DNA from: Roseateles aquatilis
GTDB taxonomy: Bacteria; Pseudomonadota; Gammaproteobacteria; Burkholderiales; Burkholderiaceae_C
Direction of reading: 5' to 3'
Length of the DNA: 64,000 nt
Assembly (NCBI RefSeq): GCF_002205645.1
Contig: NZ_NIOF01000003.1
Coordinates: 62,001 to 126,000, forward strand
Part shown: in pieces, positions 15,699 through 30,434 of the stretch
How the letters are laid out: the number at the start of each line of letters is the position of its first letter
Position numbering within the stretch: the first letter of the stretch is position 1
Notes under the pieces: generated by a model
Database searches by the model: none
What the model was told of the DNA's origin: nothing
The model's input: only the letters and a program-made list of their open reading frames with translations
Translations under genes and position numbers: made by a program

Positions 15699-15751
15699 AA
15701 AATGGGGCATGCACCGCCCCCTGCGGGGCGATGGCATGCCCCAGGGGTGGG
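15699..15751 (-). promoter_or_regulatory. GC-hairpin leader before the helicase gene
   Basis: On the minus strand CCCACCC is followed by a long hairpin: outer stem GGGGCATGC/GCATGCCCC and inner stem CGCCCC/GGGGCG, then ATTTTC and the ribosome-binding region. One of about eleven similar leaders in this part of the ICE. Confidence 0.6.
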
Positions 15752-15783
15752 AAGAGAAAGACGGCCGAGCCGTCAGAGGACGA

Positions 15784-16086
15784 TCAGTACTCGGATGGCA
15801 GCAGCAGCGTGGTGACGCTGCGGTCCCACTCGGTGATGATCCAGAGCTTCAAGGTCGGCGTGACCTGGTAGGACGAGAACAAGCGGTCTCCGGACTTCAA
15901 TGCAGCGTCGTTGGAACGCCGGTCGCAGTCATCGAGATCGCCCCAGTCGCAACGCAGGTGGCGGCGCAGATAAGGCACCGGATTGAACTGACCCTGCTGG
16001 ACCAGATCGTTGATGCCGGCGGTCATGACCACTTGTCCGGATGGGAACCGTGGTTGCGAGACGAGATTGAGAACAGCGAGTGCCAT
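15784..16086 (-). CDS. Conserved ICE/plasmid-related small protein, unknown function
   Basis: A 100-residue soluble protein beginning MALAVLNLVSQPRFPSGQVV and ending SVTTLLLPSEY. I recognise it as a conserved gene beside the helicase in ICEs of this family, usually labelled plasmid-related protein. It contains no catalytic motif that I can see. The ATG at 16086 has a good ribosome-binding site (AAGGAGA). It lies between two hairpin leaders and belongs to the leftward accessory gene run. Confidence 0.75.
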   Translation of the reverse strand: MALAVLNLVSQPRFPSGQVVMTAGINDLVQQGQFNPVPYLRRHLRCDWGDLDDCDRRSNDAALKSGDRLFSSYQVTPTLKLWIITEWDRSVTTLLLPSEY

Positions 16087-16104
16087 GGTGATTTCTCCTT
16101 CAGA

Positions 16105-16156
16105 AAGAAAAAGAGGCCACGGCACCCCATCGGGGCGACATGACCCCGGTGGGTGG
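16105..16156 (-). promoter_or_regulatory. GC-hairpin leader before the 100-residue gene
   Basis: Minus strand: CCACCCACCGGGG, then GCCCCGATGGGG, then GGCCTCTTTTTC ahead of the ribosome-binding site. It is closely similar to the leader at 18815-18859, which shares CCACCC, CCGGGGT, CCCCGATGGGG and CTTTTTC in the same order. Confidence 0.6.
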
Positions 16157-16204
16157 ACAAAGAAGGCGGCGAAGCGCTGGCAGCTTGCCGTCAGGGAACA
16201 ACGA

Positions 16205-17314
16205 TCAGCGGATGATTAGCACCTCGCCCCGCGTGGCGGAGCCCGGTGTCATGTCCCAGGCACGGATGACCGGCACGAACTTGTCGGTGAGGATGCGTGT
16301 CTCGGCCACGGAGCCGTCGTCGCGTTCGGTGTATTCCGTCTGGAGAGTCTTCTCCTTATGGGTATCACCTTTCACGACGAGCGTTCTGCCGCTCTTCGAG
16401 GTCACGACGCCCGAGATCGCGCCCGCGGCCAAGGCCAGAGCGAGATGCCAGTGGGACAAGGCCCGCGCCGGTGGACGCAGCGACTGCTGCGCGGCCCCCA
16501 GGTGGGTGTCGAGCGACGGCCATAGCCCCTGCAGTCGGCCGACTTCATCGGCGAACTGCTCAGGCTCCATCGTCACGCGATAGAAGTGCTCCGGCTCCGC
16601 GGGAGACACTGGGACGGTGTACTGCAGGAACGGCCATTCCACTGGCAGTTCCTCGGCCTCAGCATCGCCTTGCCCGATCTGCAACAGCAGCCCGCGCACG
16701 GCTTTGGCCGAGTCCGACGCCTGGTCGCGCTGGCGAGCCCGCCGACCGAAGATCACCACCTGCTTGAACTGCGCCTCTACCGCACGGTAGATCCGCAGGT
16801 CTGCGAAATGGCGCGTCAGCCATCCGACCAGCTCCGGATCGAGCACGTAGGACGGCACGATGAAGATCAGCACACCGCCGTATTGCAGCAGCGGCAGGCT
16901 GCGCTGATAGAACAACTTCTCCAGCCTGGCACGACCTTGGCCCTGATAGCCGATGTTGCCGTTGACGTCCTTGGAGAGGTCGCCATACGGCGGGTTCAGC
17001 CACAACAGGCCGAAGCTCTGCCGGCTGATCAGCGAGTCCATCAGGTCGCCGTGGAGGCAACGATCGACCAGTTGCCGGGCGTGGCGGGCACGCTCGGCGT
17101 CGTACTCGACGGCATAAGCCGAAACCTGCTCGCGCCCGAGGGCGTGCGCAGCTTCGGCAATCGCCACGCCTTCGCCGGCGCAGGGATCGAGGATGGAGAG
17201 CGGGCCAGAGGCTGGCGCCAGTGCGGACAACGCCCGTTCCAATGTGGGCTCATCGGTCGGGAAATAGCCGTTTTTGATGAAGTTGCGCGCAAGGCGCGGG
17301 AACATGAGAGCCAT
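16205..17314 (-). CDS. DUF6094-type protein with an adenine-methyltransferase fold
   Basis: A 369-residue protein whose N-terminal two-thirds look like an N6-adenine/RNA methylase: the SAM-binding loop ILDPCAGEGVAIAEA at about 41-55 and the catalytic-type motif LWLNPPYGD at 105-113. There is no attached target-recognition domain of a restriction system and no nuclease partner nearby. It is a standard ICE gene beside the helicase; it may protect or modify ICE DNA, which is inference. The ATG at 17314 has a strong ribosome-binding site (CAGGAGG). Confidence 0.85.
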   Translation of the reverse strand: MALMFPRLARNFIKNGYFPTDEPTLERALSALAPASGPLSILDPCAGEGVAIAEAAHALGREQVSAYAVEYDAERARHARQLVDRCLHGDLMDSLISRQSFGLLWLNPPYGDLSKDVNGNIGYQGQGRARLEKLFYQRSLPLLQYGGVLIFIVPSYVLDPELVGWLTRHFADLRIYRAVEAQFKQVVIFGRRARQRDQASDSAKAVRGLLLQIGQGDAEAEELPVEWPFLQYTVPVSPAEPEHFYRVTMEPEQFADEVGRLQGLWPSLDTHLGAAQQSLRPPARALSHWHLALALAAGAISGVVTSKSGRTLVVKGDTHKEKTLQTEYTERDDGSVAETRILTDKFVPVIRAWDMTPGSATRGEVLIIR

Positions 17315-17348
17315 AAGAACCTCCTGAAAGGAAGTGGGATGAAGGAAG

Positions 17349-17375
17349 ACGGGCACGCGCGCCGCGCATGCCCGT
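17349..17375 (-). promoter_or_regulatory. GC-hairpin leader before the DUF6094-type gene
   Basis: Minus strand hairpin ACGGGCA...GCGC / GCGC...TGCCCGT, followed by CTTCCTTCATCCC and the ribosome-binding site. It lacks the CCACCC box of its relatives but holds the same place between stop and next start. Confidence 0.5.
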
Positions 17376-17388
17376 ACATGGAGATGAC

Positions 17389-18039
17389 TCAGGCCACGCG
17401 CCGAAGCGGTGCGCCGGAAGCCAGCTCGTACCGCGACGCCCCGAGGGTGCCGTTGCGAATCAGGTCACCCAGCGCGGTGGTCAGCGCCGGGACGTCGATC
17501 GCCAGCCGATGACCTTCCAACGCGCCGATGGCGGATGGCAGGCGGCTCAGCATCGCGCGGGCTTGCAGCAGTTCCAGCACGGTGTCGCGCCAGTGATCGA
17601 GCAACGGCAGTGGGCAGGTGTCCTGCACCAGCGTCCACAGCCGATCGGTGCGATGCGATGAATCCCTGGGCAGCAGGGCCAGCGCGCCGGCGTTGGCCTT
17701 GTCGGGCTTCACGCAGCGGCGGTCGAACAACCACAGGTTGACCATGGAACCGAACAGCGTGCGCCGGAAGACGCGCGTGGAGCGTTTCTCCAGGTTCTCG
17801 ACGTTGCCGACGAAGACCGGGATCGATCCGCCCTGTTCGGTGATGACGTGGAACTGGTCCAGCCCCTGTTCGTCGCGCCCGAGGGTCAGACGTGCCAGGA
17901 ACTCCTGGATGGCTGTGTCGCGCGCCCAGATGGAAAGGAACACGAGATTGCCCTGTTCGTCGCCGACGCAGCCATCGGCCATCAGGTCGGGGCATTCGTC
18001 GATGCGGTAGAGCGGCTTGGGATCGGAGTGTGCAGGCAT
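17389..18039 (-). CDS. Conserved ICE protein of unknown function (216 aa)
   Basis: A soluble protein starting MPAHSDPKPLYRIDECPDLMADGCVG with a region DEQGNLVFLSIWARDTAIQEFL (about 28-50) and a Leu-rich C-terminal half. No signal peptide, membrane segment or known catalytic motif is visible. It lies in the leftward accessory series between the methyltransferase-like gene and an 86-residue gene, each behind its own hairpin leader. I do not recognise its function. Confidence 0.7.
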   Translation of the reverse strand: MPAHSDPKPLYRIDECPDLMADGCVGDEQGNLVFLSIWARDTAIQEFLARLTLGRDEQGLDQFHVITEQGGSIPVFVGNVENLEKRSTRVFRRTLFGSMVNLWLFDRRCVKPDKANAGALALLPRDSSHRTDRLWTLVQDTCPLPLLDHWRDTVLELLQARAMLSRLPSAIGALEGHRLAIDVPALTTALGDLIRNGTLGASRYELASGAPLRRVA

Positions 18040-18064
18040 GGTGATGTCCTCTTGGATAAAGGAA

Positions 18065-18109
18065 AGGGACAGCACTGCCCGCTGGGGCAAGTACTGCCCC
18101 GTGGGGTGG
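18065..18109 (-). promoter_or_regulatory. GC-hairpin leader before the 216-residue gene
   Basis: Minus strand: CCACCCCACGGGGC, AGTACTT, GCCCC, then GGGCAGTGCTGTCCC, which is itself a self-complementary stem, and TTTCC before the ribosome-binding region. Same layout as the other leaders. Confidence 0.6.
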
Positions 18110-18121
18110 AAAAGGAATGGC

Positions 18122-18382
18122 TCAGTCCGGCTTGAACTGCCGGGTGGCCGGATTGAAACGAAGCGCCTCGTCTGCCTTGCGGATCGGCGTGAAGCCTTCC
18201 AGGTAGATGTTGGCCGAGTAGTTGTCGCGGTAGGTCAACGCCTGCCGTGCCTGCTCATCGGTGAGGCCGTTGGCGATGAAGTGGTCGAGCAGTTCCTCGT
18301 CGGGCGAGACGTCGTTGTTGGACAACTGGTCTTCGACGAAAGACAGCAGCGATGCCGGAAGAGACGCGAGGATGGAGTCCAT
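18122..18382 (-). CDS. Small conserved ICE protein, unknown function (86 aa)
   Basis: MDSILASLPASLLSFVEDQL leads into an acidic stretch (NNDVSPDEELLDHFI) and a C-terminal basic part. There is no known domain. A ribosome-binding site (AGGAGG) precedes the ATG at 18382, and the gene follows the DUF6927-type gene by 16 bases, so the two are cotranscribed. Short length and partner-like position would fit an accessory or antidote protein, but nothing shows that. Confidence 0.65.
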   Translation of the reverse strand: MDSILASLPASLLSFVEDQLSNNDVSPDEELLDHFIANGLTDEQARQALTYRDNYSANIYLEGFTPIRKADEALRFNPATRQFKPD

Positions 18383-18398
18383 CGTGAGCCTCCTGGGA

Positions 18399-18797
18399 TC
18401 AGGCCGACACCGGCGTAGCCGGTAGGGTCGGCGTGCGACGACGCGCGTGGTAGGCGCGCACGCCTTCGCGCCACTGGGGGGACTGCTCGGGCGCCATCGC
18501 CAGATAGCTGAGCGGGCACGAGTAGTAGTACGGGTGCATCGACTCATCCATCGGCTTGTAGCCCCATTCATTGCCGGAGCCTTCCAGCAGGTCGCAGCGG
18601 ATGTAGTGATAGGAGTCGCCAACCCCGAGGCCCGGCTTGATGCCTTCCTGCTTGGCGGTGATGCGCACGACGGACCACAGCACGTTGCCGCGCAAGGTGT
18701 GTGCGACGGTCTCCGCGCGAAGCTGCTCGTTGTCGCGGGGTTCGATCAGCTCCTGGATCAGCTGATGGCGGGATTGCCTTGAGAAATACCAGCCCAT
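18399..18797 (-). CDS. DUF6927-type ICE protein (132 aa)
   Basis: It begins MGWYFSRQSRHQLIQELIEP and contains WSVVRITAKQEGI and an aromatic patch (MHPYYYSCPLSYL) near 88-100. I recognise it as a conserved ICE-borne gene now labelled DUF6927; function unknown. It carries a hairpin leader (18815-18859) and an AAGGAGA ribosome-binding site, and runs straight into the 86-residue gene. Confidence 0.72.
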   Translation of the reverse strand: MGWYFSRQSRHQLIQELIEPRDNEQLRAETVAHTLRGNVLWSVVRITAKQEGIKPGLGVGDSYHYIRCDLLEGSGNEWGYKPMDESMHPYYYSCPLSYLAMAPEQSPQWREGVRAYHARRRTPTLPATPVSA

Positions 18798-18814
18798 GAG
18801 AGTTCTCCTTGAAG

Positions 18815-18859
18815 AAAAAGCCGGAGTCCTCCCCATCGGGGAAGAACCCCGGCGGGTGG
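18815..18859 (-). promoter_or_regulatory. GC-hairpin leader before the DUF6927-type gene
   Basis: Minus strand: CCACCCGCCGGGGT, TTCTT, CCCCGATGGGG, ACTCCGGC, TTTTTC. The outer GCCGG/CCGGC pair and the inner CCCC/GGGG pair nest neatly. It is the best match to the leader at 16105-16156. Confidence 0.62.
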
Positions 18860-18886
18860 TGACTGACCGCTTGCGCGGCCGATGGA

Positions 18887-19501
18887 TCAGGCGGTGGCGA
18901 GGTGCCAGTCCTGAGACAACGGGGCGAACGAATAACCCAGCACCCCGAGGCGGTCGCGCTGCTGACGCAGGACACGACGATCCACGGTCGGATCGAGCTT
19001 GACGCTGTCGCCCAGCGGCCAAAGCGCGCCGAACAGTGCGGTGTCGTCTTCCTCGGCCGAGGCTTCGAGAGACGGCTTGGCTGCTTTCTCCGTGCCGAAC
19101 GGCGTGGTATCGACCAGCGGATCGCGGGTCTTGCGACCCTTCGCCTTGGCAGGTGCCGGGGCTGCGACAGGCACAGGTGCCTGCGCCTCTTCGTCGATCG
19201 GATCGACTTCCTGCGGACTCAGCCGGCGGGCTTCGTCACGGCTCAGGGGATCGATGCTGGACAAGGTCATACCGCCCAGGTGGGCGCGAATCTCGATCAC
19301 CATCCGCCCACTGGTGTTGTAGGTGGAGGGCCGGATCTCGGTGATGATGAAGTCGCCGTCGTACTTGCCTTCGGCGTACTGGTCGAGTTCGGCATTCTTG
19401 ATGACGAACTCGCCGATGGAAGTCGCCAGACGGCCGACGTTGAAGTCGCCGTTGCGACCGTGGATGGTCTTGATGGCCAGTTGGCCTGGAACATTGATCA
19501 T
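18887..19501 (-). CDS. DUF3275 family ICE protein
   Basis: A 204-residue protein. The conserved N-terminal domain (about 1-80: INVPGQLAIKTIHGRNGDFNVGRL, then YDGDFIITEIRPSTY) is typical of DUF3275 and looks like a beta-rich fold of the kind found in nucleic-acid-binding proteins. It is followed by an Ala/Pro-rich linker and a C-terminal helical segment ending LGYSFAPLSQDWHLATA. DUF3275 genes accompany DUF3577 genes in ICEs, as here. Role in replication or processing is inferred only from that company. Confidence 0.85.
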   Translation of the reverse strand: MINVPGQLAIKTIHGRNGDFNVGRLATSIGEFVIKNAELDQYAEGKYDGDFIITEIRPSTYNTSGRMVIEIRAHLGGMTLSSIDPLSRDEARRLSPQEVDPIDEEAQAPVPVAAPAPAKAKGRKTRDPLVDTTPFGTEKAAKPSLEASAEEDDTALFGALWPLGDSVKLDPTVDRRVLRQQRDRLGVLGYSFAPLSQDWHLATA

Positions 19502-19576
19502 GGATAGCTCCTTTCGACGAATGAGCGATCGCGTGCCGCCGGCGCCGAAGCGCAAGCGGTGCTCGATCGAAGGGGA

Positions 19577-19613
19577 AGAAAACAAGGCCCCGGTGCATGC
19601 GCATGGGGCCTTG
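19577..19613 (-). terminator. Intrinsic terminator after the DUF3577 gene
   Basis: Minus strand: stem CAAGGCCCC/GGGGCCTTG with a 13-base loop followed by TTTTC, directly after the stop at 19618. It should end or attenuate the DUF3577 transcript before the DUF3275 gene. Confidence 0.7.
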
Positions 19614-19617
19614 CAGA

Positions 19618-20154
19618 TCAGAACGACTCGGCCAGGGCCGGCGCGTCAGCGGGTGCATCGGCGTCGTCATTGGCGGCGGCTTCGGATGCGGGCGCGTCCT
19701 GGGCTGCCGACGCGCTGGAGGGTGCTGGTGCATCCTCGCTCGCCGCGTCATCGGTCGTCTTGGGCTCGGCCTTGTAGACCATCTCGCCATCAATCTTGAT
19801 CCAGTTCACAAAGAGCAGGCGGGCCTTCAGGCTGACGCCCTGCTGGCCGGCATTCTTCCCCTTGGAGTAGGTGAAGATGTCGGTCCACAGGTCGCCGAGG
19901 CGGAAGCCGATCAGCACCTTGCGTTCGGCCTTGACGGCCTCTTCGCAACGGCGGACCAGATGCTGAGCTTCGCTGCCGGACACCCGCACGTCGAAACGGC
20001 GGTACTCGGGAGCGTTGCTCGGACCATTGAGCGCTGCGATGTCGCAGGCCAGGAACGGCTCACCTTTCTTGGGCTTCACTTCGCGGATGCGATTGAGATA
20101 CCCGAGGCCAGTGATGTGCAGGTCGAAGAACGATTTTTCGGATGAAGTGGTCAT
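19618..20154 (-). CDS. DUF3577 (STY4534-type) ICE replication-associated protein
   Basis: A 178-residue protein. The conserved part (about 1-130) has SFFDLHITGLGYLNRIREVKP and FLACDIAALNG, then KARLLFVNWIKIDG; the tail is Ala/Glu/Asp-rich and low in complexity, as in single-stranded-DNA-binding proteins. The family is annotated as ICE replication protein of STY4534 type. A long upstream region (20155-20548) holds a hairpin leader and copy A of the three-copy structured element, so this gene seems to be under elaborate 5' control. Confidence 0.87.
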   Translation of the reverse strand: MTTSSEKSFFDLHITGLGYLNRIREVKPKKGEPFLACDIAALNGPSNAPEYRRFDVRVSGSEAQHLVRRCEEAVKAERKVLIGFRLGDLWTDIFTYSKGKNAGQQGVSLKARLLFVNWIKIDGEMVYKAEPKTTDDAASEDAPAPSSASAAQDAPASEAAANDDADAPADAPALAESF

Positions 20155-20180
20155 GGTGAATCTCCAGACTTGAGAACAAG

Positions 20181-20239
20181 AAAAGCGGAGACACACCGAC
20201 CCTGGCGGGGAGGTGTGGAAACCCCCGCGCGGGTTGTGG
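20181..20239 (-). promoter_or_regulatory. GC-hairpin leader before DUF3577
   Basis: Minus strand: ACCCGCGCGGGGGT, then CACACC-TCCCCGCCAGGG-GGTGTG, then CCGCTTTTC before the ribosome-binding site. Two stacked hairpins; same place as the other leaders. Confidence 0.6.
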
Positions 20240-20350
20240 ATCGTGAGACCCGGAAACAACTACCGTGGCATCTCCATCGATGACTCGACGGACGTTCGCG
20301 CTATGGATGCCGAGAGCGAACTGGGGTGATCAACGCGGCCGGAACCGCGT

Positions 20351-20410
20351 CGTAGCCTTGAAGACCTTGGCTACCTGGGCATGCTGCTGACGGGTGTCAG
20401 CGGAACATGG
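20351..20410 (-). promoter_or_regulatory. Three-copy structured element, copy A (upstream of DUF3577)
   Basis: Two hairpins separated by a conserved linker. Plus-strand reading gives stem GTAGCC/GGCTAC, linker CTGGGCATGCT and stem GCTGAC/GTCAGC, then GGAACATGG. It lies about 200 bases before the DUF3577 start and after a terminator. Copies B and C are at 21475-21536 and 24451-24509; copy C keeps the first stem through a compensatory pair change. Confidence 0.65.
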
Positions 20411-20500
20411 CAGCAGCGTGGCTCCTACAGACGCGGGCTGCCAGAAGGAATCGGCATCAGCGATGTTCCCGATTGCTCGACCACCGGGGGCATGAACCAA

Positions 20501-20525
20501 AGAAAAGCCCCTCGATCGAGGGGCT
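20501..20525 (-). terminator. Intrinsic terminator after the 266-residue gene
   Basis: Minus strand AGCCCCTC/GAGGGGCT stem followed by TTTC, 24 bases after the stop at 20549. Confidence 0.75.
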
Positions 20526-20548
20526 GTGAAGGAACACAAGGGTTGGTT

Positions 20549-21349
20549 TCAGTGCCGCACGCTGCGCGCCTTGCCGGAGAGCGTTTCCACCCGGATAAGG
20601 CGCCAACTGCCGTCATCGATTAAGCGCTCCAGCGTGTCACCGAGATCGTCGAAATAGACGTCATCGACGCGCTCGACGGATTCACCGTCGCGGTGCAGTT
20701 CGACCACATAGACGTCGCCGCCGCGGTCGTAGCTCACCGTGACCTGGCCGCTGAACTTACCGGTCTCGACCGTGAAACGGATGGACGGCGGAGTGGCGAT
20801 GATGTCGTGCGGCTTGGGGTCGACCAGCGAGAAGTCCCGGGCATTGGCGTCAACCAGCAGGTGGCTGATGTACCGATGACCATCTGGTGCGGGCAGCTTC
20901 TGCAACTGCTGGATCAGTTCGGCCAGTTCCGGGCAGCGTGCCTGTGGCACAGGCAGCTCCGTGGTGGCGTCGCCCAGAATCACCGACTTGACGGTGTAGG
21001 GCCTGCCATCGGCCAGGTACTCCGTCTTCTCCCGGGGTGTGCCGACGCGCTGGCCATCGAAGTGGCGACGCGCATACGGAATGACTTCCACTTTGCTGCC
21101 TTCGGCTGGAACAGCAGTGACCAGATGGCGATCGACCACTGCGAACTGGGTCGGCTTGACCTTCACAACGATCGCGTCGTCGGTGACCGCGATCACCTTG
21201 CCTTGGAACGGACTGGGATCGGCCGCGAAGCCCAGCATAGTTTTCTGCGGCGTACCGTCGTAGACGTTGAACTTGAACGACCTAGCATTGCGAGGCACAT
21301 GGCCTGCGACCAGGGTGGGCATTTGAGAGCGGATGAGAGCGTGGTCCAT
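20549..21349 (-). CDS. Conserved ICE protein of unknown function (266 aa)
   Basis: A soluble, beta-rich-looking protein: MDHALIRSQMPTLVAGHVPRNARSF, then KVIAVTDDAIVVKVKPTQFAVVD (about 50-75), a charged middle, and DRGGDVYVVELHRDGE with a C-terminal DDGSWRLIRVETL. No catalytic motif is visible. It is bounded by terminators on both sides and preceded by a hairpin leader and structured-element copy B, so it forms its own transcription unit. I do not recognise a function. Confidence 0.72.
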   Translation of the reverse strand: MDHALIRSQMPTLVAGHVPRNARSFKFNVYDGTPQKTMLGFAADPSPFQGKVIAVTDDAIVVKVKPTQFAVVDRHLVTAVPAEGSKVEVIPYARRHFDGQRVGTPREKTEYLADGRPYTVKSVILGDATTELPVPQARCPELAELIQQLQKLPAPDGHRYISHLLVDANARDFSLVDPKPHDIIATPPSIRFTVETGKFSGQVTVSYDRGGDVYVVELHRDGESVERVDDVYFDDLGDTLERLIDDGSWRLIRVETLSGKARSVRH

Positions 21350-21370
21350 GGAAATCTCCTAGAAGAAGAC

Positions 21371-21416
21371 CAAAGGACGCCCGCCCGCCACCGGGGTTGG
21401 GAGCCCCTGGTGGGTT
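21371..21416 (-). promoter_or_regulatory. GC-hairpin leader before the 266-residue gene
   Basis: Minus strand: CCCACCAGGGGCTCCC, then AACCCCGGTGG pairs with CCACC, followed by a G/C-rich run and CCTTTGG before AGGAGA. Member of the leader family. Confidence 0.58.
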
Positions 21417-21474
21417 GAGGTAAATGGCGCGGGATGCGCCGGGGATGAACAACGACCTGTGCGGCGAACCGCAC

Positions 21475-21536
21475 CGTAGCCTTGGAGGTCGATGGCTACC
21501 TGGGCATGTTGCTGACCTCAAGTCAGCGGAACATGG
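21475..21536 (-). promoter_or_regulatory. Three-copy structured element, copy B
   Basis: Plus-strand reading: GTAGCC/GGCTAC stem, CTGGGCATGTT linker, GCTGAC/GTCAGC stem, GGAACATGG. The loop sequences differ from copy A while both stems are kept. It lies between a terminator (21611-21635) and the 266-residue gene start. Confidence 0.65.
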
Positions 21537-21610
21537 GTTCAGAGTGCACCGGCTCCATTGACCTGCCGACAAAGAATCGGCACCCCGGCCGGGTCGGTTT
21601 CCTGCACGCG

Positions 21611-21635
21611 AAAAAAACCCCTGCGAACAGGGGCT
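21611..21635 (-). terminator. Intrinsic terminator after the DUF5983-like gene
   Basis: Minus strand AGCCCCTG/CAGGGG stem with a short loop, followed by seven T residues: a textbook factor-independent terminator 19 bases after the stop at 21654. Confidence 0.85.
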
Positions 21636-21653
21636 GTGGCTTGAGGTGTGGCG

Positions 21654-22367
21654 TCACTCCTCGAAGATCGGCAGACCTTCCAGGATCTGCGCGTCCGCAT
21701 CGAGGATCAGGATGCGCACGTCGGCCTGCGCTGCCAGGTGCAGGACGTTGACCAGGCTCTCGGGCATGGCCTTCTTGAGATGCTCCCGACGCAGGTCTTC
21801 GGCCGTGATGCCCTCGACATGGCCGAGGTTCTCGTCCGTCCAGGGCGTGGCGATCAGCTTGACCCCGATCGCCGGGCTGTACGGAATGCGGAACGCGACG
21901 AACAGAAACCGGGTCGGCGTGGCGATGTCGGCCAGCTCGGCCAGGTAGCGCCCGGCATCTTCGGTGATGTGGGCGGAACTGATCTCCCAGCAGCGGCTGT
22001 AGAAGCCGGTATCGAATGTCAGGCGCCGGATGACTTCGCGTGCGGCCTCGTCGGAATAGGTGTCGCCGACATGGACAGGCTGGCCGAAGTCATCGCCGGC
22101 AACCGCATAGGTCACGGTTCGCACGATGCCCTCGGTCTGGCATTGATCCTCGAGTTCCTCGCTGATCTCCTGGCCCTCGGTGATCAGGGCAAAGTCGTTG
22201 CAGAAGATGCAGGGGAACTGTGCGACCTGATCGTCAGGCAGATGAGCCTGGCTGGAGTGAAGTAGCCGCCAGACCGGTGGGCTGTCGTCCTCGTAGGTGA
22301 TGCAAAGCGTGCGGACGATGCGCAGGTTCTGATAACCGCGAACGAACGGATTCGATTGGATGGACAT
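21654..22367 (-). CDS. DUF5983-like conserved ICE protein
   Basis: A 237-residue protein with CIFCND (CxxC) near residues 53-58. Its strongly conserved C-terminal half is FYSRCWEISSAHIT, FLFVAFRIPYSPAIGVKLIATPW and VRILILDADAQILEGLPIF. I recall this family as DUF5983, common in ICEs of this type; no function is known. The mix of an N-terminal CxxC and a C-terminal alpha/beta pattern suggests two domains. A hairpin leader precedes it. Confidence 0.7.
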   Translation of the reverse strand: MSIQSNPFVRGYQNLRIVRTLCITYEDDSPPVWRLLHSSQAHLPDDQVAQFPCIFCNDFALITEGQEISEELEDQCQTEGIVRTVTYAVAGDDFGQPVHVGDTYSDEAAREVIRRLTFDTGFYSRCWEISSAHITEDAGRYLAELADIATPTRFLFVAFRIPYSPAIGVKLIATPWTDENLGHVEGITAEDLRREHLKKAMPESLVNVLHLAAQADVRILILDADAQILEGLPIFEE

Positions 22368-22385
22368 GGGATTTCTCCAGCAGAG

Positions 22386-22432
22386 AATAGGCGGAGCTAT
22401 CCCCTGCTGGGGATTAAGCCCCAGCGGGTGGA
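22386..22432 (-). promoter_or_regulatory. GC-hairpin leader before the DUF5983-like gene
   Basis: Minus strand: CCACCCGCTGGGGCTTAATCCCCAGCAGGGGATAGC. CTGGGG can pair with CCCCAG, or the following GGGG with the same CCCC, giving two exclusive folds. CTATTCTC and the ribosome-binding site follow. Confidence 0.62.
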
Positions 22433-22447
22433 TGAAGTGGTGGACGC

Positions 22448-23137
22448 TCAGGCGGAGCGGTGGGAAGTGCTGCTTTCCAGCAGGCGTTCGGCGAGCCTCA
22501 GGCGCAGGGATCTGCGGGTGGCGTCATCGCCGATACCGGCGAGCAGGCTGACGGTTTCGAGCGCGATCCGGGCGGCCGCCTCGTCAAGATCGCCGGCCTG
22601 AATCGCCTTGTGCAGGTCCTGCCCGAGTTCCAGGGCGCGGGTCGAGCTGCTGTAGACGGTGACGTCGCGGCTGATGAACATGCCGTTGCCGCCAAACTCG
22701 AAGAGACGCGGCCTGTCGCTGTGCCAACATCCCTCGAACCGGATGGCTCGGAGGCCGTGTCCGTCGTCGAAGCATCTGGCGACGACAAACAGCGTGTCCA
22801 GTTCCGCGCCGTCCTCGAAGCGATGAGCCCTGAGAAGGTGATCCAGTTGCGGATCGCTCTCCGCGGAAAAGTGCTTCGCCAGCAGGCGTAGGTAGGACTG
22901 AATGCTGGGCTCTTCATCCTCGGGGAACGGCCGGCCGAGCTGGTAGGCCAGTTCGACCAGGTTGTCGCGGATGTCGTCCCATTGCGGATCGCTGCCTTCG
23001 GATGTCCGGGCGATGTACGTCTCTCCGTCGCCGGGATAGGTCTCGTCCAGATTGAACCCGCCGAATAGCGCGGTGATGACCGGCGTGATCCGGTCGAGCA
23101 CAAGAACGCCGGTGGCGTCGTAGTAGTTGTTGGACAT
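22448..23137 (-). CDS. Conserved ICE protein of unknown function (229 aa)
   Basis: It starts MSNNYYDATGVLVLDRITPVITALF and is acidic overall. A GNGMFISRDVTVYSSSTRALELG segment is near 155-177 and the C-terminus is helical (RRSLRLRLAERLLES). No signal peptide, membrane segment or catalytic motif. AAGGAGCC precedes the ATG at 23137. It is a member of the leftward accessory run; function not recognised. Confidence 0.7.
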   Translation of the reverse strand: MSNNYYDATGVLVLDRITPVITALFGGFNLDETYPGDGETYIARTSEGSDPQWDDIRDNLVELAYQLGRPFPEDEEPSIQSYLRLLAKHFSAESDPQLDHLLRAHRFEDGAELDTLFVVARCFDDGHGLRAIRFEGCWHSDRPRLFEFGGNGMFISRDVTVYSSSTRALELGQDLHKAIQAGDLDEAAARIALETVSLLAGIGDDATRRSLRLRLAERLLESSTSHRSA

Positions 23138-23159
23138 GGTGGCTCCTTGGTTGAAGAAA

Positions 23160-23199
23160 CTGCGGAGCCGCGCCCTGGCGGACGTGGGGAGTCCGCAGA
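23160..23199 (-). promoter_or_regulatory. GC-hairpin leader before the 229-residue gene
   Basis: Minus strand: outer stem CTGCGGA/TCCGCAG around TCCCCACGTCCGCCAGGG, then TTTC and the ribosome-binding site. Confidence 0.55.
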
Positions 23200-23260
23200 G
23201 TTGCGAAGCGAGGTATCGACGCCAGACAGGCATCGGTCCTCGGGTAGCGGACGCAGCTGC

Positions 23261-23524
23261 TCAGCGGGCGGGCATGCCTGCTACCGGTGTGTCCGATGGG
23301 GGATAGATCACGGTCAGGAACTGCCTGCCGTTGTGATCGCGGAAGCACGTGCCGTCCGGTACGGCAACCCAGGTGATCCAGTCATGGACCTCCAGCGTCG
23401 TGCCGCGAACGATTCGGGCTCTGAACCAGCGGCCGGGCAGTTGGCCGTCGCCGTAGAACCCGGCGCTGGTGCGCGCGTGATGCGCGTTGAGCCGCCGGAC
23501 GATTTGTCTGAGCGTCAGGGACAT
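23261..23524 (-). CDS. Small conserved ICE protein (87 aa), unknown function
   Basis: MSLTLRQIVRRLNAHHARTSAG at the start and an aromatic, beta-rich remainder (GRWFRARIVRGTTLEVHDWITWVAVPDGT, split by short loops). It could be a small nucleic-acid-binding barrel, but that is only a visual impression. CAGGAG precedes the ATG at 23524. It is positioned between two similar orphan genes, each with its own leader. Confidence 0.62.
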   Translation of the reverse strand: MSLTLRQIVRRLNAHHARTSAGFYGDGQLPGRWFRARIVRGTTLEVHDWITWVAVPDGTCFRDHNGRQFLTVIYPPSDTPVAGMPAR

Positions 23525-23550
23525 GTGCCACTCCTGAGATGAAGAGGAGG

Positions 23551-23590
23551 AACACGGCCCCGGCAGGGACACGTGTCCCTCGTAGGGTTG
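23551..23590 (-). promoter_or_regulatory. GC-hairpin leader before the 87-residue gene
   Basis: Minus strand: CCCTACGAGGGACACGTGTCCCTGCCGGGGCCGTGTTCC. The inner GGGACACGTGTCCC is a perfect palindrome. Confidence 0.55.
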
Positions 23591-23623
23591 GAGAAAAGGT
23601 GCGAGTGCGACGGCGAGGCAGGC

Positions 23624-24016
23624 TCACCAACCGTTGTAGTTGAGGACCAAGTCGGCGATGACCTTGCGCCGCTCCAGATCGAGGCCGCCGAAGTCGGACA
23701 GCCCCTCGAAGCCGCAACGCTTGAGCATCGCGCCGCCTTCGCGGGCGTTGTAGAAGCTCACCATCGCGGACAGGAACATCCGCTGGCCACTGCTCAGGAC
23801 ACCCAGGGCGTCGTTGAGCATCAGCATGTTGGGCCGCAGCTCCCACTTGGTCGTGGCACGCTGCAAGCCTTCGCGGGTGCCGTCGCCGAACCACTCGGCG
23901 CCGGCGATCTCGGCACCGCGCTTCCAGGCCTGGAAGAACGCGGACGGGGCCTGGGTGAAATGCGCATCTTCCCGCGCGATCTGATCGAACACTTCTTGAG
24001 GCAATGACAAGCTCAT
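23624..24016 (-). CDS. Conserved ICE protein (130 aa), unknown function
   Basis: A helical, soluble protein starting MSLSLPQEVFDQIAREDAHFTQAP. It has SSGQRMFLSAMVSFYNAREGGAMLKRCGF in the middle (about 76-104) and a conserved-looking end DLERRKVIADLVLNYNGW. The sequence pattern recalls other ICE proteins in which expression-linked helices surround a FYN motif, but I cannot name a family with certainty. AAGGAG lies before the ATG at 24016. Confidence 0.68.
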   Translation of the reverse strand: MSLSLPQEVFDQIAREDAHFTQAPSAFFQAWKRGAEIAGAEWFGDGTREGLQRATTKWELRPNMLMLNDALGVLSSGQRMFLSAMVSFYNAREGGAMLKRCGFEGLSDFGGLDLERRKVIADLVLNYNGW

Positions 24017-24044
24017 GAGGAATCTCCTTGGATGGCAGGGGCAA

Positions 24045-24299
24045 TCACGGGTGCGAGCGCTGTGTCCACGCGCCTGTCGCCAGGGCTTTGGCTGCGGCGT
24101 CGCGGCTGGGGAAGTACTCGAAGGACTCGCGGGAGCAAGGTCCGTCGTGGTCATCGAACGCGCCGATGTAGTAACCAGCGGCACTGCGAAGAACCTGCAG
24201 AGGCAGGCGCTTGCCGACAAAGGTCAGGGCCAGGTAGCCGATGGAATCGGCTCGGGCCGCCTGTGCCGTGATGGGTGGCGAAGTGGAAGCAAGGGACAT
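24045..24299 (-). CDS. Small ICE protein (84 aa), unknown function
   Basis: MSLASTSPPITAQAARADSIG opens a short alpha/beta protein with LQVLRSAAGYYIGAFDDHDGPCSRESFEYF and a C-terminal AAAKALATGAW. GGAGAG precedes the ATG at 24299; another in-frame ATG nine bases upstream is possible. It is the first gene of the accessory run after the topB intergenic region and carries a leader and structured-element copy C upstream, so it probably has its own promoter. Confidence 0.65.
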   Translation of the reverse strand: MSLASTSPPITAQAARADSIGYLALTFVGKRLPLQVLRSAAGYYIGAFDDHDGPCSRESFEYFPSRDAAAKALATGAWTQRSHP

Positions 24300-24325
24300 G
24301 GGGCTCTCCATGGGGAAAATGGAAA

Positions 24326-24365
24326 GCTCAATCCCGACGGGATGAAGGAACTTCCCGTGAGGTGG
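24326..24365 (-). promoter_or_regulatory. GC-hairpin leader before the 84-residue gene
   Basis: Minus strand: CCACCTCACGGGAAGTTCC, TTCATCCCGTCGGGAT. CCCG/CGGG forms the core, and the CCACC box is kept. Confidence 0.52.
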
Positions 24366-24450
24366 ATCGAAGCATCGACGCCAGGTATCGGCGGCGTCCG
24401 CGCGGGCGATGCGAAGCGGACTGGTTCGGTCTACGCGGAAGGTTCCGCGG

Positions 24451-24509
24451 CGCAGCCTTGAAGACCGGAGCTGCCTGGGCATGGCGCTGACGGAGTCAGC
24501 AACGCATGG
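24451..24509 (-). promoter_or_regulatory. Three-copy structured element, copy C
   Basis: Plus-strand reading: GCAGC/GCTGC stem (where copies A and B have GTAGC/GCTAC: T-A changed to C-G on both sides), CTGGGCATGGC linker, GCTGAC/GTCAGC stem and a CATGG end. The compensatory change argues for selection on RNA or cruciform pairing. Confidence 0.65.
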
Positions 24510-24616
24510 GCTTAGCTTCGGAGAGCAGTGCGAGCTTGTCGTGCAACAAATCGAAGCTGCGCGGTTCCTGATTTCCAAGCGCTGGATAGCGCTGTCGCCA
24601 TTTAGCAGCGCACACG

Positions 24617-24639
24617 AAAAGGCCCCGCAGTGCGGAGCC
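24617..24639 (-). terminator. Putative terminator in the topB downstream region
   Basis: Minus strand GGCTCCGCA/TGCGGGGCC (one mismatch) followed by TTTTC. It would stop transcripts coming from the topB side before the accessory genes. Confidence 0.6.
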
Positions 24640-25172
24640 GGTTGTGAAACAGGGAGCAGAGGTTGTCGGCCGTGCGGCCGGCGTGTTTCAGGACAAGGAA
24701 AGACCAAGGTGCCGAAGGCTGGAGGCCTTCGGCTGGATGACAAAGGAGTGCCACCCGTGGGCTGCTACAGGCGTGGGGCCGTCGTCAAAGCCGCCGCTGC
24801 ACCAGCAATCGCACTCGACCGGTATCGTGGCTGGGGTCGATATCCTCTGGCACGCATCCGCGCACAAAGGGCGCCCGTTTTTTCACCGGCGGGCACCGGC
24901 ACCGAATACCGTCGACCCCGAAGAGTCTCCTGGCGGCTCGCGAGACGAGGCGCCAGGAGACTCTTCTGAGTGAACGGAAGAACCGCGGATCAAGGGAATC
25001 GCGTGGGGCGCCATTCGCGGACCAACTGCCTTCTCGCCCTGTGGCCACACGTGCCAGGCAGGACGCGCACACCGTCGCAGAAGGGATCGCGTGCTGGGGA
25101 GGCCCCGCAACGCGCGGGGCGCATGCCTCGCCGCCGGGGGAGCGGCAGGCGCGGCAGACGTGTTTTCAGGCT
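24640..25172. other. 533-bp non-coding region with a 16-bp perfect inverted repeat
   Basis: No supported gene. The main feature is the perfect inverted repeat 24920-24935/24951-24966 (GAAGAGTCTCCTGGCG and its complement) with a 15-base spacer that itself contains CTCGCGAG. Nearer topB is a second hairpin, GCCCCGCG/CGCGGGGC-like, at about 25098-25118. It lies between the DNA-processing genes and the accessory genes and is therefore a candidate site for an origin of transfer or another protein-binding site. Confidence 0.5.
24920..24966. repeat. Perfect 16-bp inverted repeat
   Basis: Arms 24920-24935 and 24951-24966 are exact complements, with a spacer of 15 bases. There is no T-run on either side, so it is not a standard terminator. 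It lies about 200 bases after the topoisomerase stop. Confidence 0.85.
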
Positions 25173-27188
25173 TCAGGACGCCTTGGGTGACGCGCGCCGC
25201 TTGCGCGGCGCCGGGCGTTTGCCCGTCGAAGATTCGACAGGCAGTGTGCCCTTGCAGTCTGGGTAGCGGCTGCACGACCAAAAGATGCCGCTCTTGCCGG
25301 TGCGCTGGCGCATCGGCGACGTGCACAACGGGCAGGCCGGCGTCGGCGGCAGCTTGAGGGACAACCTGGTGCCGCGGTGCTGCTGGACCAACTGCGTGAT
25401 CCAGGCCGACTGCTTCTCGATAAAGGTGTCCAGCGTCATCTGGCCGGCCTCGATCATGTCCAGCGCCTGCTCCCAGATCGCCGTGGTGCCCGGATCGGCA
25501 ATCGCCACCGGCACCGCATCGATCAGCGTGAAGGCCGCATCCGACGCGCGGATGGCGCGGCCTTTCTTCAGCAGATAGCTACGGCCCAGCAGGCCGTTGA
25601 TGATGCTGGCGCGCGTGGCTTCGGTGCCGATACCCGTCGTTTCCTTGAGCTTCTGCTTCAGTCGCGGGTCGGTCACCAACTTGGCAACACCCTTCATGGC
25701 CTTGATCAGTTCGCCCTGGGTGTAGGGCTTGGGTGGCAAGGTCTTCAGCGCCTTCATCTCAACTTGCTCGACGCCGCACGGCATGCCGCTGGTCAGCGGC
25801 GGCAGGATCTGACCGCGCTGCGCCGGCTCATCATCCGACTTCTCCGGACCAGCATTGACCAACGCCAGGCGCCAGCCAGGCACGACCACCTGCTTGCCGG
25901 TCGCCTGCAGTGGCTGGCCACCGCTGGTCAACACCGCTGTGGTCCGATCGAACTCATGGTGCGGCAGGAACTGCGCCAGGTAGTGGGACCGGATCAGGCC
26001 GTACACCGCCTGTTCCTTCTCCGACATGGCTGAAAGCCGGGTGGGTTCCAGCGTCGGGATGATGCCGTGGTGAGCCGTCACCTTGTCGTCATTCCACGCG
26101 CGTGAACGTTGGCTGCGGTCCAGCTTATCGATTAGCGGTCGCAGGCCGGGATCGGTGGCGAGCAAGGCACCGAGGACGGCCGGCACTTCGGCCAGCATGC
26201 TTTCGGGCAGGTAGCCCGAGTCGGAGCGTGGATAGGTCGTCGCCTTGTGCGTTTCGTACAGCGCCTGGGCAATGTCCAGCGTCTCCTGCACATCGAGGCC
26301 GAGCTGGCGCGAACACACTTCCTGCAAGGTACCCAGGTCGAACGGCAGCGGTGCGGCTTCCCGCACGCGCTCGGTCTCGACCGACACCACCCGCGCCTCG
26401 CGGTCGGCGCGGATACGATCGGCTGCGTGCTGCGCCACCGGCTGCTGGAGGCAGCGTCCCGCCGCATCGGAGGTGCTGTCGGGCGGCAGCCAATGGGCGC
26501 CGAAGGAGTGGCCCGACTGAGCCAGCAAGACCTCGACCGTCCAGTACGGCACGGATACGAACCTAGCGATCTCGCGGTCGCGGTCGACCACCAGGCGCAG
26601 CGTGGGGGTCTGTACCCGACCGACCGACAGCACGCCCGAGTAGCCGGCTTGGCGTCCGAGCACGGTGAACAGCCGACTCAGGTTCATGCCGATCAGCCAG
26701 TCGGCACGCGAGCGGGCCAGGGCCGAGTAGTACAACGACAGCGTCTCGGCCGAAGGCTTCAACGCGCCCAGCGCTTTGCGGATCGATGCATCGTTGAGCG
26801 CCGACAGCCACAGCCGCTGGATTGGGCCGCGGTAGCTGCACAGGTCGAGGATTTCGCGGGCGATCATTTCGCCTTCGCGATCGGCGTCGGTGGCGATCAC
26901 CAACTCGCTCGCTTGGGCGACGAGGTGCTTGACCACCTTGAATTGCGCTGCGACCGAAGCCTTGACCTCGACGCGCCAGCGCTCGGGAATGATAGGTAGT
27001 TGCTCGATGGACCAGCGCTTGTACTGCTCGCCGTAGCCTTCGGGCGGAACCGCTTCGATCAGATGGCCGATGCACCAGGTCACGACGGTACCCGAACCGC
27101 TGTAGCAGCCGGAACCTCGCTGGCCGGCGCCCAGCACGCGGGCGATGTCCTTGCCTTGCGAAGGCTTCTCGCACAGGAACACGCGCAT
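25173..27188 (-). CDS. topB: DNA topoisomerase III (type IA) of the ICE
   Basis: A 671-residue type IA topoisomerase, related to TraE/TopB proteins of conjugative elements, which relaxes or decatenates DNA during ICE processing. It has a TOPRIM domain with DADREGE (D101, D103, E105), SRADWLIGMNLSRL near 160-173, GVLSVGRVQTPTL near 185-197 and the catalytic tyrosine in HKATTYPRSDSGYL (Y319). A C-terminal four-Cys zinc finger (CPLC...CSRYPDC) and a basic tail finish the protein. Start at 27188 behind GGAGG. A 15-bp palindrome lies 214 bases upstream. Confidence 0.95.
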   Translation of the reverse strand: MRVFLCEKPSQGKDIARVLGAGQRGSGCYSGSGTVVTWCIGHLIEAVPPEGYGEQYKRWSIEQLPIIPERWRVEVKASVAAQFKVVKHLVAQASELVIATDADREGEMIAREILDLCSYRGPIQRLWLSALNDASIRKALGALKPSAETLSLYYSALARSRADWLIGMNLSRLFTVLGRQAGYSGVLSVGRVQTPTLRLVVDRDREIARFVSVPYWTVEVLLAQSGHSFGAHWLPPDSTSDAAGRCLQQPVAQHAADRIRADREARVVSVETERVREAAPLPFDLGTLQEVCSRQLGLDVQETLDIAQALYETHKATTYPRSDSGYLPESMLAEVPAVLGALLATDPGLRPLIDKLDRSQRSRAWNDDKVTAHHGIIPTLEPTRLSAMSEKEQAVYGLIRSHYLAQFLPHHEFDRTTAVLTSGGQPLQATGKQVVVPGWRLALVNAGPEKSDDEPAQRGQILPPLTSGMPCGVEQVEMKALKTLPPKPYTQGELIKAMKGVAKLVTDPRLKQKLKETTGIGTEATRASIINGLLGRSYLLKKGRAIRASDAAFTLIDAVPVAIADPGTTAIWEQALDMIEAGQMTLDTFIEKQSAWITQLVQQHRGTRLSLKLPPTPACPLCTSPMRQRTGKSGIFWSCSRYPDCKGTLPVESSTGKRPAPRKRRASPKAS

Positions 27189-27468
27189 GGAGCCTCCTCG
27201 GATACGTGCTGTTGATCGGATGGACGACAGCATGTCCGCGCAGGGAGAACTCGACAGCAAGGAAGCGGAACGGGATGGACACCGATTTGTGTGGACGACA
27301 GGAAAACGCCGCCCGCAGCGGTGTGGGCAGGTCGCTGCGGAAGGCGTTACGGAAGCGTCGTGTCGGGAGGGCGACTGGAAGCCGATGGACGTCGATGACG
27401 CTATCCCCAGGGGATAACTGGTGCATGGCGGGCGGTTGACGGTTGCTACAGCCGCCCTCGAAGGACAT
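27189..27468. other. 280-bp intergenic region upstream of topB
   Basis: No gene. It contains the palindrome at 27402-27416 directly after the ssb stop and a moderately AT-richer stretch at 27205-27300, the likely topB promoter region; no clear -35/-10 pair stands out. Confidence 0.5.
27402..27416. promoter_or_regulatory. Palindromic site TATCCCC-A-GGGGATA, copy 1
   Basis: Perfect 7-1-7 palindrome upstream of topB. Two further copies with a T centre lie at 29378-29392 and 30413-30427. All three sit in gaps before leftward genes of the processing cluster, so a shared regulator or partition protein is likely. Confidence 0.7.
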
Positions 27469-27852
27469 CTATTGGCCGGCGGCCGGCTTGGTGCCGAGCA
27501 CCACCGCCTCGACGCGATACGGCAGGATGCCCACACGCCTGGCCTCGATCTTGAACGTGACCCGTTCGTTCTCGTCGGCATCCTCCCACTCGTCGCGCAC
27601 CGTGCGGCCATCGACCAGTACGCGCATGCCTTTCTGGTAGAGACTGGCCCAGTGCTCGGCATCGCGATGCCACAGTTCCACCGGCGCCCAAAAGCCGCCG
27701 CGGTCCTCGTATTCACCGTCCTTCTTCGGCACCGGGTTGTCGAAGTAGACGTTCAGGCGCAGCAGACGCCGCGGTTCGTCGTTGCCGTTGGTGAACTCGC
27801 GGTACTCGGGCGCAGAACCGATGTTGCCTTCGCCGCTGAAATGCGTGCTCAT
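27469..27852 (-). CDS. ssb: Single-stranded DNA-binding protein (ICE type)
   Basis: A 127-residue OB-fold protein: MSTHFSGEGNIGSAPEYREF at the start, then RRLLRLNVYFDNPVPKK, FWAPVELWHRDAEHWASLYQKGMRVLVDG and a basic RVTFKIEARRVGIL strand. This is the SSB layout without the usual acidic C-terminal tip of chromosomal SSB. It protects transferred or replicating ICE single strands. It overlaps the upstream gene by ATGA and ends the small operon PFL_4669-PFL_4670-ssb. Confidence 0.92.
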   Translation of the reverse strand: MSTHFSGEGNIGSAPEYREFTNGNDEPRRLLRLNVYFDNPVPKKDGEYEDRGGFWAPVELWHRDAEHWASLYQKGMRVLVDGRTVRDEWEDADENERVTFKIEARRVGILPYRVEAVVLGTKPAAGQ

Positions 27853-28400
27853 GGTGCCTCCTGTCGCGTGGTGGGTTGGATCGAAACGCCGTGCCCGTGG
27901 TGGACACGGCGCAGGTAGACCGCCTCGGCCTGGGACATCTTGTCGGCGCATTCCAGGGCCTGGCGGGCAATGCTGTGAGTCAGGCTGATCTGCATGTTCA
28001 GCGCGATGCGCTGCAGCTCCATCGCGTAGAGATCGTCGACCAGGCGATCGGGCGTGGACGGGCTGGCGATGAGGTGCTGCCACAGCGTCACACCCATGCT
28101 GGACCGGTCGAGGTTGCGCCAGCGCAGGAAGGTCGTGCCTGCGCCAGTGGTCTGCTGAGCCAGTTGCGAGCCGAGCAGGTTGAAGGGGTAGGTGCGTGCC
28201 TGCGGCAGCACTCGTCTCATCGCCAGCGCGATCAAGTCGTCGCGCAGCGCCATGCATTGGCTGGCCCAGGCCTCCAGACTTCCCTTACCTTTAAAAGGCT
28301 TCAAAAGGCCTTTTAGGTAGGCGGCGTGTTCCAGTCGCTGGAAGTCGGGCTGTTCCAGCGGCATGAAGTGTCGAGGCGCCGCGGAGGATTGCGCCGTCAT
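27849..28400 (-). CDS. DUF3158 (PFL_4670-type) ICE protein
   Basis: A 183-residue soluble helical protein. Characteristic parts are MPLEQPDFQRLEHAAYLKGLLKPFKGKGSLE (about 13-43), NLLGSQLAQQTTGAGTTFLRWRN and a C-terminal helix. It is always found between the PFL_4669 gene and ssb in this ICE family; here it overlaps both by ATGA. The role is presumed to be ICE DNA replication or processing. It contains a noticeably AT-rich AAAAGGCTTCAAAAGGCC stretch at about 28292-28311. Confidence 0.87.
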   Translation of the reverse strand: MTAQSSAAPRHFMPLEQPDFQRLEHAAYLKGLLKPFKGKGSLEAWASQCMALRDDLIALAMRRVLPQARTYPFNLLGSQLAQQTTGAGTTFLRWRNLDRSSMGVTLWQHLIASPSTPDRLVDDLYAMELQRIALNMQISLTHSIARQALECADKMSQAEAVYLRRVHHGHGVSIQPTTRQEAP

Positions 28401-30427: not shown

Positions 30428-30434
30428 GTCAACA

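Follow-up and report, generated by a model that had tools for sequence, protein, structure and literature searches.

The 64,000-nt stretch of Roseateles aquatilis DNA analysed here (contig NZ_NIOF01000003.1, positions 62,001 to 126,000; hereafter the window) carries genes of an integrative and conjugative element (ICE), among them a gene for a DUF3577 protein of the STY4534 family of ICE replication proteins and two leftward genes for proteins of 266 and 84 amino acids (aa). Upstream of each of the three genes lies a copy of a repeated structured element, described in the initial annotation as two hairpins joined by a linker and suspected there of being a cis-acting regulatory RNA or a cruciform-forming site of the ICE. 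Then, what is this element? Based on a cmscan search of the window against 4227 Rfam families, all three copies are radC RNAs (RF01754) on the minus strand (Table 1).

The scores are far above the curated gathering cutoff of RF01754 (40 bits), and the match is full-length in all three copies (model positions 1-149 of 149), with copy 2 diverging in its 3' part. All three copies are in the sense orientation, each ahead of a gene, which agrees with membership of the family. The whole genome contains one further copy above the cutoff, located 12.4 kb to the left of the window before a radC gene, whose product matches PF04002 (5e-43). With these scores, the occurrence in Proteobacteria and the fourth copy ahead of radC, the identity of the three copies as radC RNA is nearly certain. 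The element is a known family and not a new one; a revised structure and a predicted position of the transcript start are the additions made here. No family other than radC has a match in the window at E<=1, which argues against the suggestion that the element might be one of the motifs named after DUF3577 and DUF3085 genes. In the table of Weinberg et al. (2010; PMC2864571), the row for radC RNA gives RNA as "Y", cis-regulatory as "y" and switch as "?", and no later functional study was found within a limited literature search. The initial annotation had spotted the repeated element correctly, with the quoted sequences in their proper places, and its three copies are real; however, the feature is larger and lies on the opposite strand as complete radC RNAs, and the linker quoted there, CTGGGCATG, is the complement of CATGCCCAG in the RNA. 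The whole 3' half, the fourth copy and the upstream dyads described below lay outside the copies as annotated.

A search model built from 21 copies gave 83 and 82 matches in the scanned loci and the own contig; together with 17 survey copies, these constitute a working set of 182 matches (139 distinct), which fall into classes by the gene behind the RNA. Two model-guided alignments, A2 (143 rows, 135 distinct) and A3, were used, which are fitted to the helices P2, P3 and P4 but not to PK1, P5 and PK2. Two putative pseudoknots (PK1 and PK2) and one stem (P5) are added here to the structure printed by cmscan, whose consensus differs in having no P5 (GUUCGC/GCGAAC) and in pairing the 3' part otherwise; covariance models cannot show pseudoknots. 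It has been remarked that radC is one of the families for which covarying pairs are missing from the Rfam and ZWD structures, the paper leaving unstated which ones (PMC7657543), and parts of the present structure may therefore already be in its supplement.

In PK1, the loop of the second hairpin is paired with the four bases directly behind the third hairpin. In A2, 97.6% of its 539 cells are paired, with 70 double-change cells versus 20.4 in shuffled controls, and slid versions reach at most 52%. Based on A2 and A3, PK1 pairs (score at least 4) in 105 of the 123 distinct combinations of loop and downstream sequence, three failing even at 3.5, while combinations dealt at random 200 times gave a mean of 56.3 of 123 and a maximum of 70. 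In the full-type 3' domain, P5 carries a loop word, GCAUCC, which pairs with the final GGAUGC (PK2). P5 with nested PK2 was found in 94 of 173 distinct RNAs longer than 125 nt, versus 8 of 865 shuffled 3' parts, and PK2 occurs as 11 word pairs, such as GCUUCC/GGAAGC, GCUUCU/AGAAGC and GCAUUC/GAAUGC. With the two unassigned rows left out, P5 (at least 4 of 6 pairs) forms in 5 of the 38 rows that belong to classes 2, 3, 10 and 11, and in each of the 103 assigned to other classes. The loop and joining sequences CUUCAAG and CCAG are conserved, and the 5' CAUG is variable.

The significance of covariation was assessed by a tree-based null of our own, in place of R-scape. With all 135 rows, stacks of three pairs in P2, PK1 and P4 pass at E<=0.04 (PK1 at E<=0.01), and when the test is restricted to the 99 full-type rows, it is passed by P2 and P6. 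Single PK1 columns rank 4th and 8th of 10,296 pairs, the top eight of which are all structure pairs. Covariation is supported within limits, some helices and columns failing the null (see below). The change of T-A to C-G on both sides of stem 1 in copy 3 is as the initial annotation described it.

Which strand carries the conserved molecule? Across P2-P4 and PK1 of the 135 distinct rows, G-U occurs in 135 cells versus 23 for A-C, and therefore the conserved molecule is minus-strand RNA. The innermost pair of stem 1 in copy 3, C-A on the plus strand and U-G on the minus strand, also points to minus-strand RNA. The proposal of a cis-acting regulatory RNA of the ICE is consistent with this asymmetry, with the Rfam type (Cis-reg) and with the one orientation before ICE genes, whereas the alternative of a cruciform site is not, as pairing is not kept equally on both strands. 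A DNA element in the wider sense, that is, a cruciform, a single-strand origin or a protein site on the transferred strand, would suit the one orientation, the mobile elements and the DNA-handling neighbours; given the same asymmetry and the U-G pair of copy 3, we regard it as very improbable. Family, strand, structure, orientation and gene neighbours all emerge here from the comparison of sequences.

Table 1. Positions of the radC RNAs, their helices, and the associated genes, dyads and hairpins (window coordinates unless a contig is named).
Feature	Position	Strand	Details
radC RNA copy 1	20268-20419	-	129.5 bits, E 1.6e-24; before DUF3577 gene
radC RNA copy 2	21385-21545	-	92.3 bits, E 4.6e-16; before 266-aa gene
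radC RNA copy 3	24372-24518	-	102.2 bits, E 2.5e-18; before 84-aa gene
Fourth radC RNA	G000:C34:49427-49577	-	139 bits; before radC gene
Copy 1 P2	20396-20401/20386-20391	-	
Copy 1 P3	20369-20374/20352-20357	-	
Copy 1 P4	20345-20351/20332-20338	-	
Copy 1 PK1	20363-20366/20328-20331	-	GGUC with GAUC
Copy 1 P5	20316-20321/20294-20299	-	GUUCGC with GCGAAC
Copy 1 PK2	20306-20311/20267-20272	-	GGCAUC with GAUGCC
Copy 2 PK1	21487-21491/21453-21457	-	CGACC with GGUCG; P2, P3 and P4 also present
Copy 2, in place of P5/PK2	21426-21440	-	small hairpin, plus leader hairpin of the gene
Copy 3 P3		-	GCAGCU/GGCUGC
Copy 3 PK1	24463-24467/24427-24431	-	CGGUC with GACCG
Copy 3 P5	24416-24421/24396-24401	-	GUCCGC with GCGGAC
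Copy 3 PK2	24407-24412/24372-24377	-	GCAUCG with CGAUGC
DUF3577 / STY4534-family ICE replication protein gene	19618-20154	-	led by copy 1; PF12101 3.1e-60; NF040584 203.8 bits (cutoff 160)
266-aa gene	20549-21349	-	led by copy 2; KfrB match sub-threshold only (17 bits, cutoff 25)
84-aa gene	24045-24299	-	led by copy 3; no family match
Dyad upstream of copy 1	20449-20474	-	AATCGG-N14-CCGATT; predicted +1 ~20408, A of CAUG
Dyad upstream of copy 2	21575-21600	-	9/10 positions; predicted +1 ~21534, A of CAUG
Weaker dyad upstream of copy 3	24549-24573	-	8/10 positions; predicted +1 ~24507-24508
Dyad before AcaB gene (28397-29254)	29321-29346	-	9/10; without radC RNA
TTGACT after the AcaB-gene dyad	29314-29319	-	
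TGCCGATGCT after the AcaB-gene dyad	29287-29296	-	
Terminator-like hairpin upstream of copy 1	20506-20525	-	
Terminator-like hairpin upstream of copy 2	21616-21635	-	
Terminator-like hairpin upstream of copy 3	24621-24639	-	
DUF2857 protein gene	31634-32191	-	PF11198 2.5e-64

Where does the RNA begin? Counts were made on dereplicated upstreams, 7 of 109 being omitted (six without class and one of class 9). A dyad of the form AANCGG-N12..16-CCGNTT (score at least 8 of 10) precedes 73 of the 85 promoter-class copies versus 15% of mononucleotide shuffles, a score that is partly circular because the pattern was picked by eye on the same upstreams, while its fixed place is not circular: in 66 of the 73, the end of the dyad lies between -28 and -32 relative to the start of the RNA model, with 43 of these at -29. 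In the radC-gene class, the dyad is found in 2 of 17. In 75 of the 85 promoter-class upstreams, a -10-like A..CT coincides, to within 1 nt, with the first position of the RNA model; none of the 17 upstreams of the radC-gene class has it there, and it occurs at 1.3% of other upstream places. If it served as a -10 box, the position of its last T would place +1 on the CAUG. For distant sources (L165, L167 and L172), several copies were noted by eye to have instead a TTGAC-type -35 box about 17 nt before a -10-like box at the RNA start.

The spacing can be calibrated on the AcaB gene, whose dyad has no radC RNA and is followed by the boxes listed in Table 1; a thymine lies 26 nt upstream of the ATG and 41-42 nt downstream of the end of the dyad. 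For the ICEclc topB cluster, the reported transcript start is a thymine located 25 nt upstream of ORF95213; the -35 box is TTGACT and the -10 box TGTCGATCCT (PMC2892462). The published start and the thymine in the window agree to 1 nt, AcaB being equated with ORF95213 by gene order only (the window cluster is AcaB-DUF3158-topB). With a dyad-to-start spacing of 41 nt, the A of CAUG would be +1 in copies 1 and 2, and copy 3 would agree to within about one base. From the dyad, the box and this spacing, we infer that transcription likely starts at the conserved CAUG outside the radC-gene class, where the RNA would form the 5' end of the mRNA; for the three copies in the window, the predicted start is thus at the upstream edge of the RNA and not behind it, as the initial annotation's refuting case would have required. 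Dyads also occur before the gene starting at 7071 on the type IV secretion system (T4SS) side (7135-7160) and before topB, which starts at 27188 (27263-27287); no radC RNA was found at either, and four dyad matches were found versus about two per pattern expected by chance. A leader peptide read as AUG CCC AGG UAG was also considered and rejected, because its last codon varies between copies and can be UAG or CAG.

The genes behind the radC RNA are unrelated, and the RNA leads single genes as well as longer units. By the first open reading frame (ORF) behind them, the 139 distinct RNAs form 15 clusters, including a pair and eight singletons, some of which are poor ORF picks; the cluster sizes are 44 (RadC-like), 32 (DUF3577), 20 (266-aa), 16 (216-aa), 14 (84-aa) and 3 (130-aa). 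The name-giving association concerns 44 of 139 distinct RNAs, which precede one homologous ORF cluster, and the three copies in the window precede other genes. For most neighbours, 27-115 nt separate the RNA from the start codon, a distance that differs by class, and based on this variability the radC RNA appears to behave as an autonomous module. As the initial annotation held, each copy is located between a terminator-like hairpin and a leftward gene (84-aa, 266-aa or DUF3577); copy 2 leads one gene, which is followed by a terminator-like hairpin. The 216-aa gene (17389-18039, minus strand) is preceded by a radC RNA of its own in class 3, which comprises 16 distinct relatives; in the window, none was found before it in the Rfam scan. 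Most leaders of leftward genes at 13081-24372 (minus strand) fold strongly, with z<=-1.8 versus mononucleotide shuffles for 12 of the 14 tested. The usual arrangement is a GC-rich hairpin followed by a second one at the ribosome site, which has AAGGAG or a similar sequence within its loop or close to it. This looks like a shared translational control, which we presume, by resemblance, may be RsmA/CsrA-like.

The copies before radC show a different arrangement. In 42 of 44, a frame that has been open for 80 codons enters the RNA and stops in its second hairpin, whose UAG lies at position 45; in our own genome (class 0, the radC-gene class), the product of this frame is a thioredoxin-fold protein, encoded where the T4SS side ends. 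The incoming frame stops likewise in both members of class 6, and in class 1 an open upstream frame, ending at position 21, occurs in 16 of 32, an open frame being weak evidence in GC-rich DNA. Before radC, the RNA thus lies inside an operon, and its folding would compete with translation.

Taken together, we consider it probable that the radC RNA is a cis-acting leader, itself probably protein-bound, which tunes the genes directly behind it. Here and in related ICEs, most copies would stand at the 5' end of an mRNA of their own. The dyad about 41 nt upstream may be the site of an activator, perhaps one of BisDC type encoded by the ICE itself, and transcription would begin at the CAUG conserved in radC RNA. 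The first ~145 nt are predicted to fold into three hairpins, one closed onto the downstream sequence as a pseudoknot, often with a second pseudoknotted domain after them. The RNA would then act in cis, most likely as the site of a protein common to all copies, with the result that translation or stability is set for the gene or genes directly behind it. By eye, neither an overlap of the RNA with the ribosome site nor a fixed terminator behind it was seen; together with the class-specific distance and the unrelated genes, this favours a protein-bound local module, and the effect is taken as local rather than long-range because the only gene led by copy 2 is followed by a terminator-like hairpin. 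The identity of the activator, the binding of a protein and the local effect are what we infer from this pattern. It is also conceivable, although rather doubtful, that the radC RNA provides a second, RNA-level lock on ICE activation, in which the activator that turns on transfer-competence transcripts would begin several of them with the double-pseudoknot RNA. Expression of the replication and maintenance genes would then require that a factor encoded by the element accept this RNA, or that the RNA itself alter RNA polymerase; before radC, it would be gated by the ribosome stopping inside it.

Several observations weigh against the protein-bound leader as described. Besides the partial circularity of the dyad score, the P3 stack fails the tree-based null with 135 rows (E>=0.5), the PK1 and P5 stacks fail with the 99 full-type rows (E 0.37 and 1.8), and single PK1 column pairs fail as well (E 1.6 and 6.1). 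Classes 2 and 3 mostly have no 3' domain, in which they also differ from the family model. The radC-gene copies have no dyad, no -10 box and no free 5' end, and a 5'-terminal position is therefore not required. According to the figure legend of PMC9286271, the shared ICEclc promoter motif lies 152 bp from the PinR start, a distance that does not fit the dyad, and it is not established that the dyad is the published 27-bp BisDC motif. Finally, the units behind promoter-class copies are rich in terminator-like hairpins on the sense strand, as an antiterminator would require.

The last point bears on processive antitermination, in which the RNA, being made first, would modify RNA polymerase, by itself or together with a factor, and thereby let it read through the intergenic terminator-like hairpins. 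The predicted 5' end would suit this. At window positions 12000-30000, 23 terminator-like sites were found versus 10.6+-3.3 expected, 17 of them on the minus strand, in contrast to 9 versus 11.3 on the T4SS side in locus L026; at 13398-24372 there are six sense and no antisense hairpins, and none on the T4SS side. However, there is little intergenic room among T4SS genes, and the contrast is confounded. In relatives, where non-redundant regions were counted up to 260 nt from the next copy, 85 sense versus 14 antisense hairpins lie behind promoter-class copies in 190.2 kb, in contrast to 2 versus 17 upstream of radC-class copies in 78.5 kb. The DUF3577 unit itself contains a 15-pair hairpin with a T-rich tail (18820-18853, minus strand), and at least 12 relatives have a similar one, at about +1377 to +1460 relative to the RNA. 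On the other hand, of 289 hairpins in all classes, 49 lie before the next copy, 111 in the leader of the following gene and 129 elsewhere, and the T tracts are interrupted in many of them. There is a single gene behind copy 2, and before radC the RNA leads one RadC gene, with a terminator-like hairpin some 600-700 nt behind the RNA in many relatives; in our own genome, radC is followed by a hairpin that lacks a T-rich tail and was therefore not scored as terminator-like. We consider antitermination possible but improbable, and the protein-bound local leader is retained.

The fold might also shield the transcript from 5'-end-dependent decay, or shield a processed fragment before radC. The predicted 5' end lies within a CAUG able to pair with a second CAUG. 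In ICEclc, the polycistronic mRNA ORF68241-81655 is reported to be rapidly cleaved (PMC2892462) and transcript processing at three sites was considered (PMC9286271), with no radC copy mapped at any of these places. Such a stabiliser appears unlikely, since protection alone needs neither the conserved CUUCAAG and CCAG nor two pseudoknots, and the 5' CAUG is itself variable. A compact fold with two pseudoknots, and the "?" for switch in the 2010 table (PMC2864571), would be compatible with a riboswitch or another ligand-sensing RNA; as judged by eye, however, there is no conserved pairing with the ribosome site and no fixed terminator behind the RNA, and the leaders behind it vary by gene class, so that this reading seems quite unlikely. 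We give an equally small chance to a leader processed into a stable trans-acting RNA: three copies in tRNA or tmRNA islands have a TTGAC-type box upstream and their next long sense ORF at 635, 671 and 1268 nt, but most ICE copies have a gene close behind and no terminator was noticed directly behind the RNA.

As for the distribution, with our own genome counted, radC RNA is carried by 4 of 100 relatives and by 2 of 369 genomes of the class, with 4-5 copies each. The number of copies ranges from 1 to 20 in 16 genomes reached via loci, and is about four per element. In all 30 multi-copy sources, the copies are on one strand. A pattern scan of named genomes gave at least 118 stretches, and the 80 matches listed are mostly from Beta- and Gammaproteobacteria; the core pattern had no match in the phage collection. 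Tandem identical radC RNAs about 1 kb apart (L157:5523-5664 and 6554-6695; L158:10079-10214 and 10988-11123) suggest recent duplication. Further copies lie in islands beside a tmRNA or tRNA gene (L163:2552-2685, L164:3743-3878 and L166:3702-3837), behind a large hairpin and an ORF resembling, by eye, a P4-type integrase, with a long conserved stretch between the RNA and the next sense ORF.

Among known systems, the put RNAs of phage HK022 are hairpins at the 5' end of transcripts with terminators downstream, and their antitermination function is established. The likeness to radC RNA is one of layout, and antitermination is only a rival explanation for the latter. The STAXI motif is a pseudoknot repeated two or three times, located near ssb, topoisomerase and antirestriction genes according to the description in PMC2864571; radC RNA shares the pseudoknots, but STAXI is itself repeated, and the window matches radC alone in Rfam. 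The closest setting is that of the ICEclc transfer-competence promoters (PMC9286271; PMC2892462). The word "radC" is absent from the main text of these two papers and of PMC7423338, and among 398 genomes from the genus of G467, two had matches to the published ICEclc promoter boxes. The region 27849-35205 (minus strand) resembles the ICEclc regulatory module, with AlpA, ParA, an unassigned ORF at the place expected for BisD, DUF2857, AcaB and DUF3158, DUF2857 being the domain reported for the ICEclc activator subunit BisC (PMC7423338). Each element has about four copies, placed where ICE transcripts are predicted to begin, and together with the revised fold this specifies concrete mutants to make. 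ICEclc-like elements are thus a model element type in which the function of radC RNA, left open in the 2010 table (PMC2864571), is testable: as in ICEclc, a BisC-type gene is present in the element, and the topB-cluster promoter is alike in its -35 box, -10 box and start.

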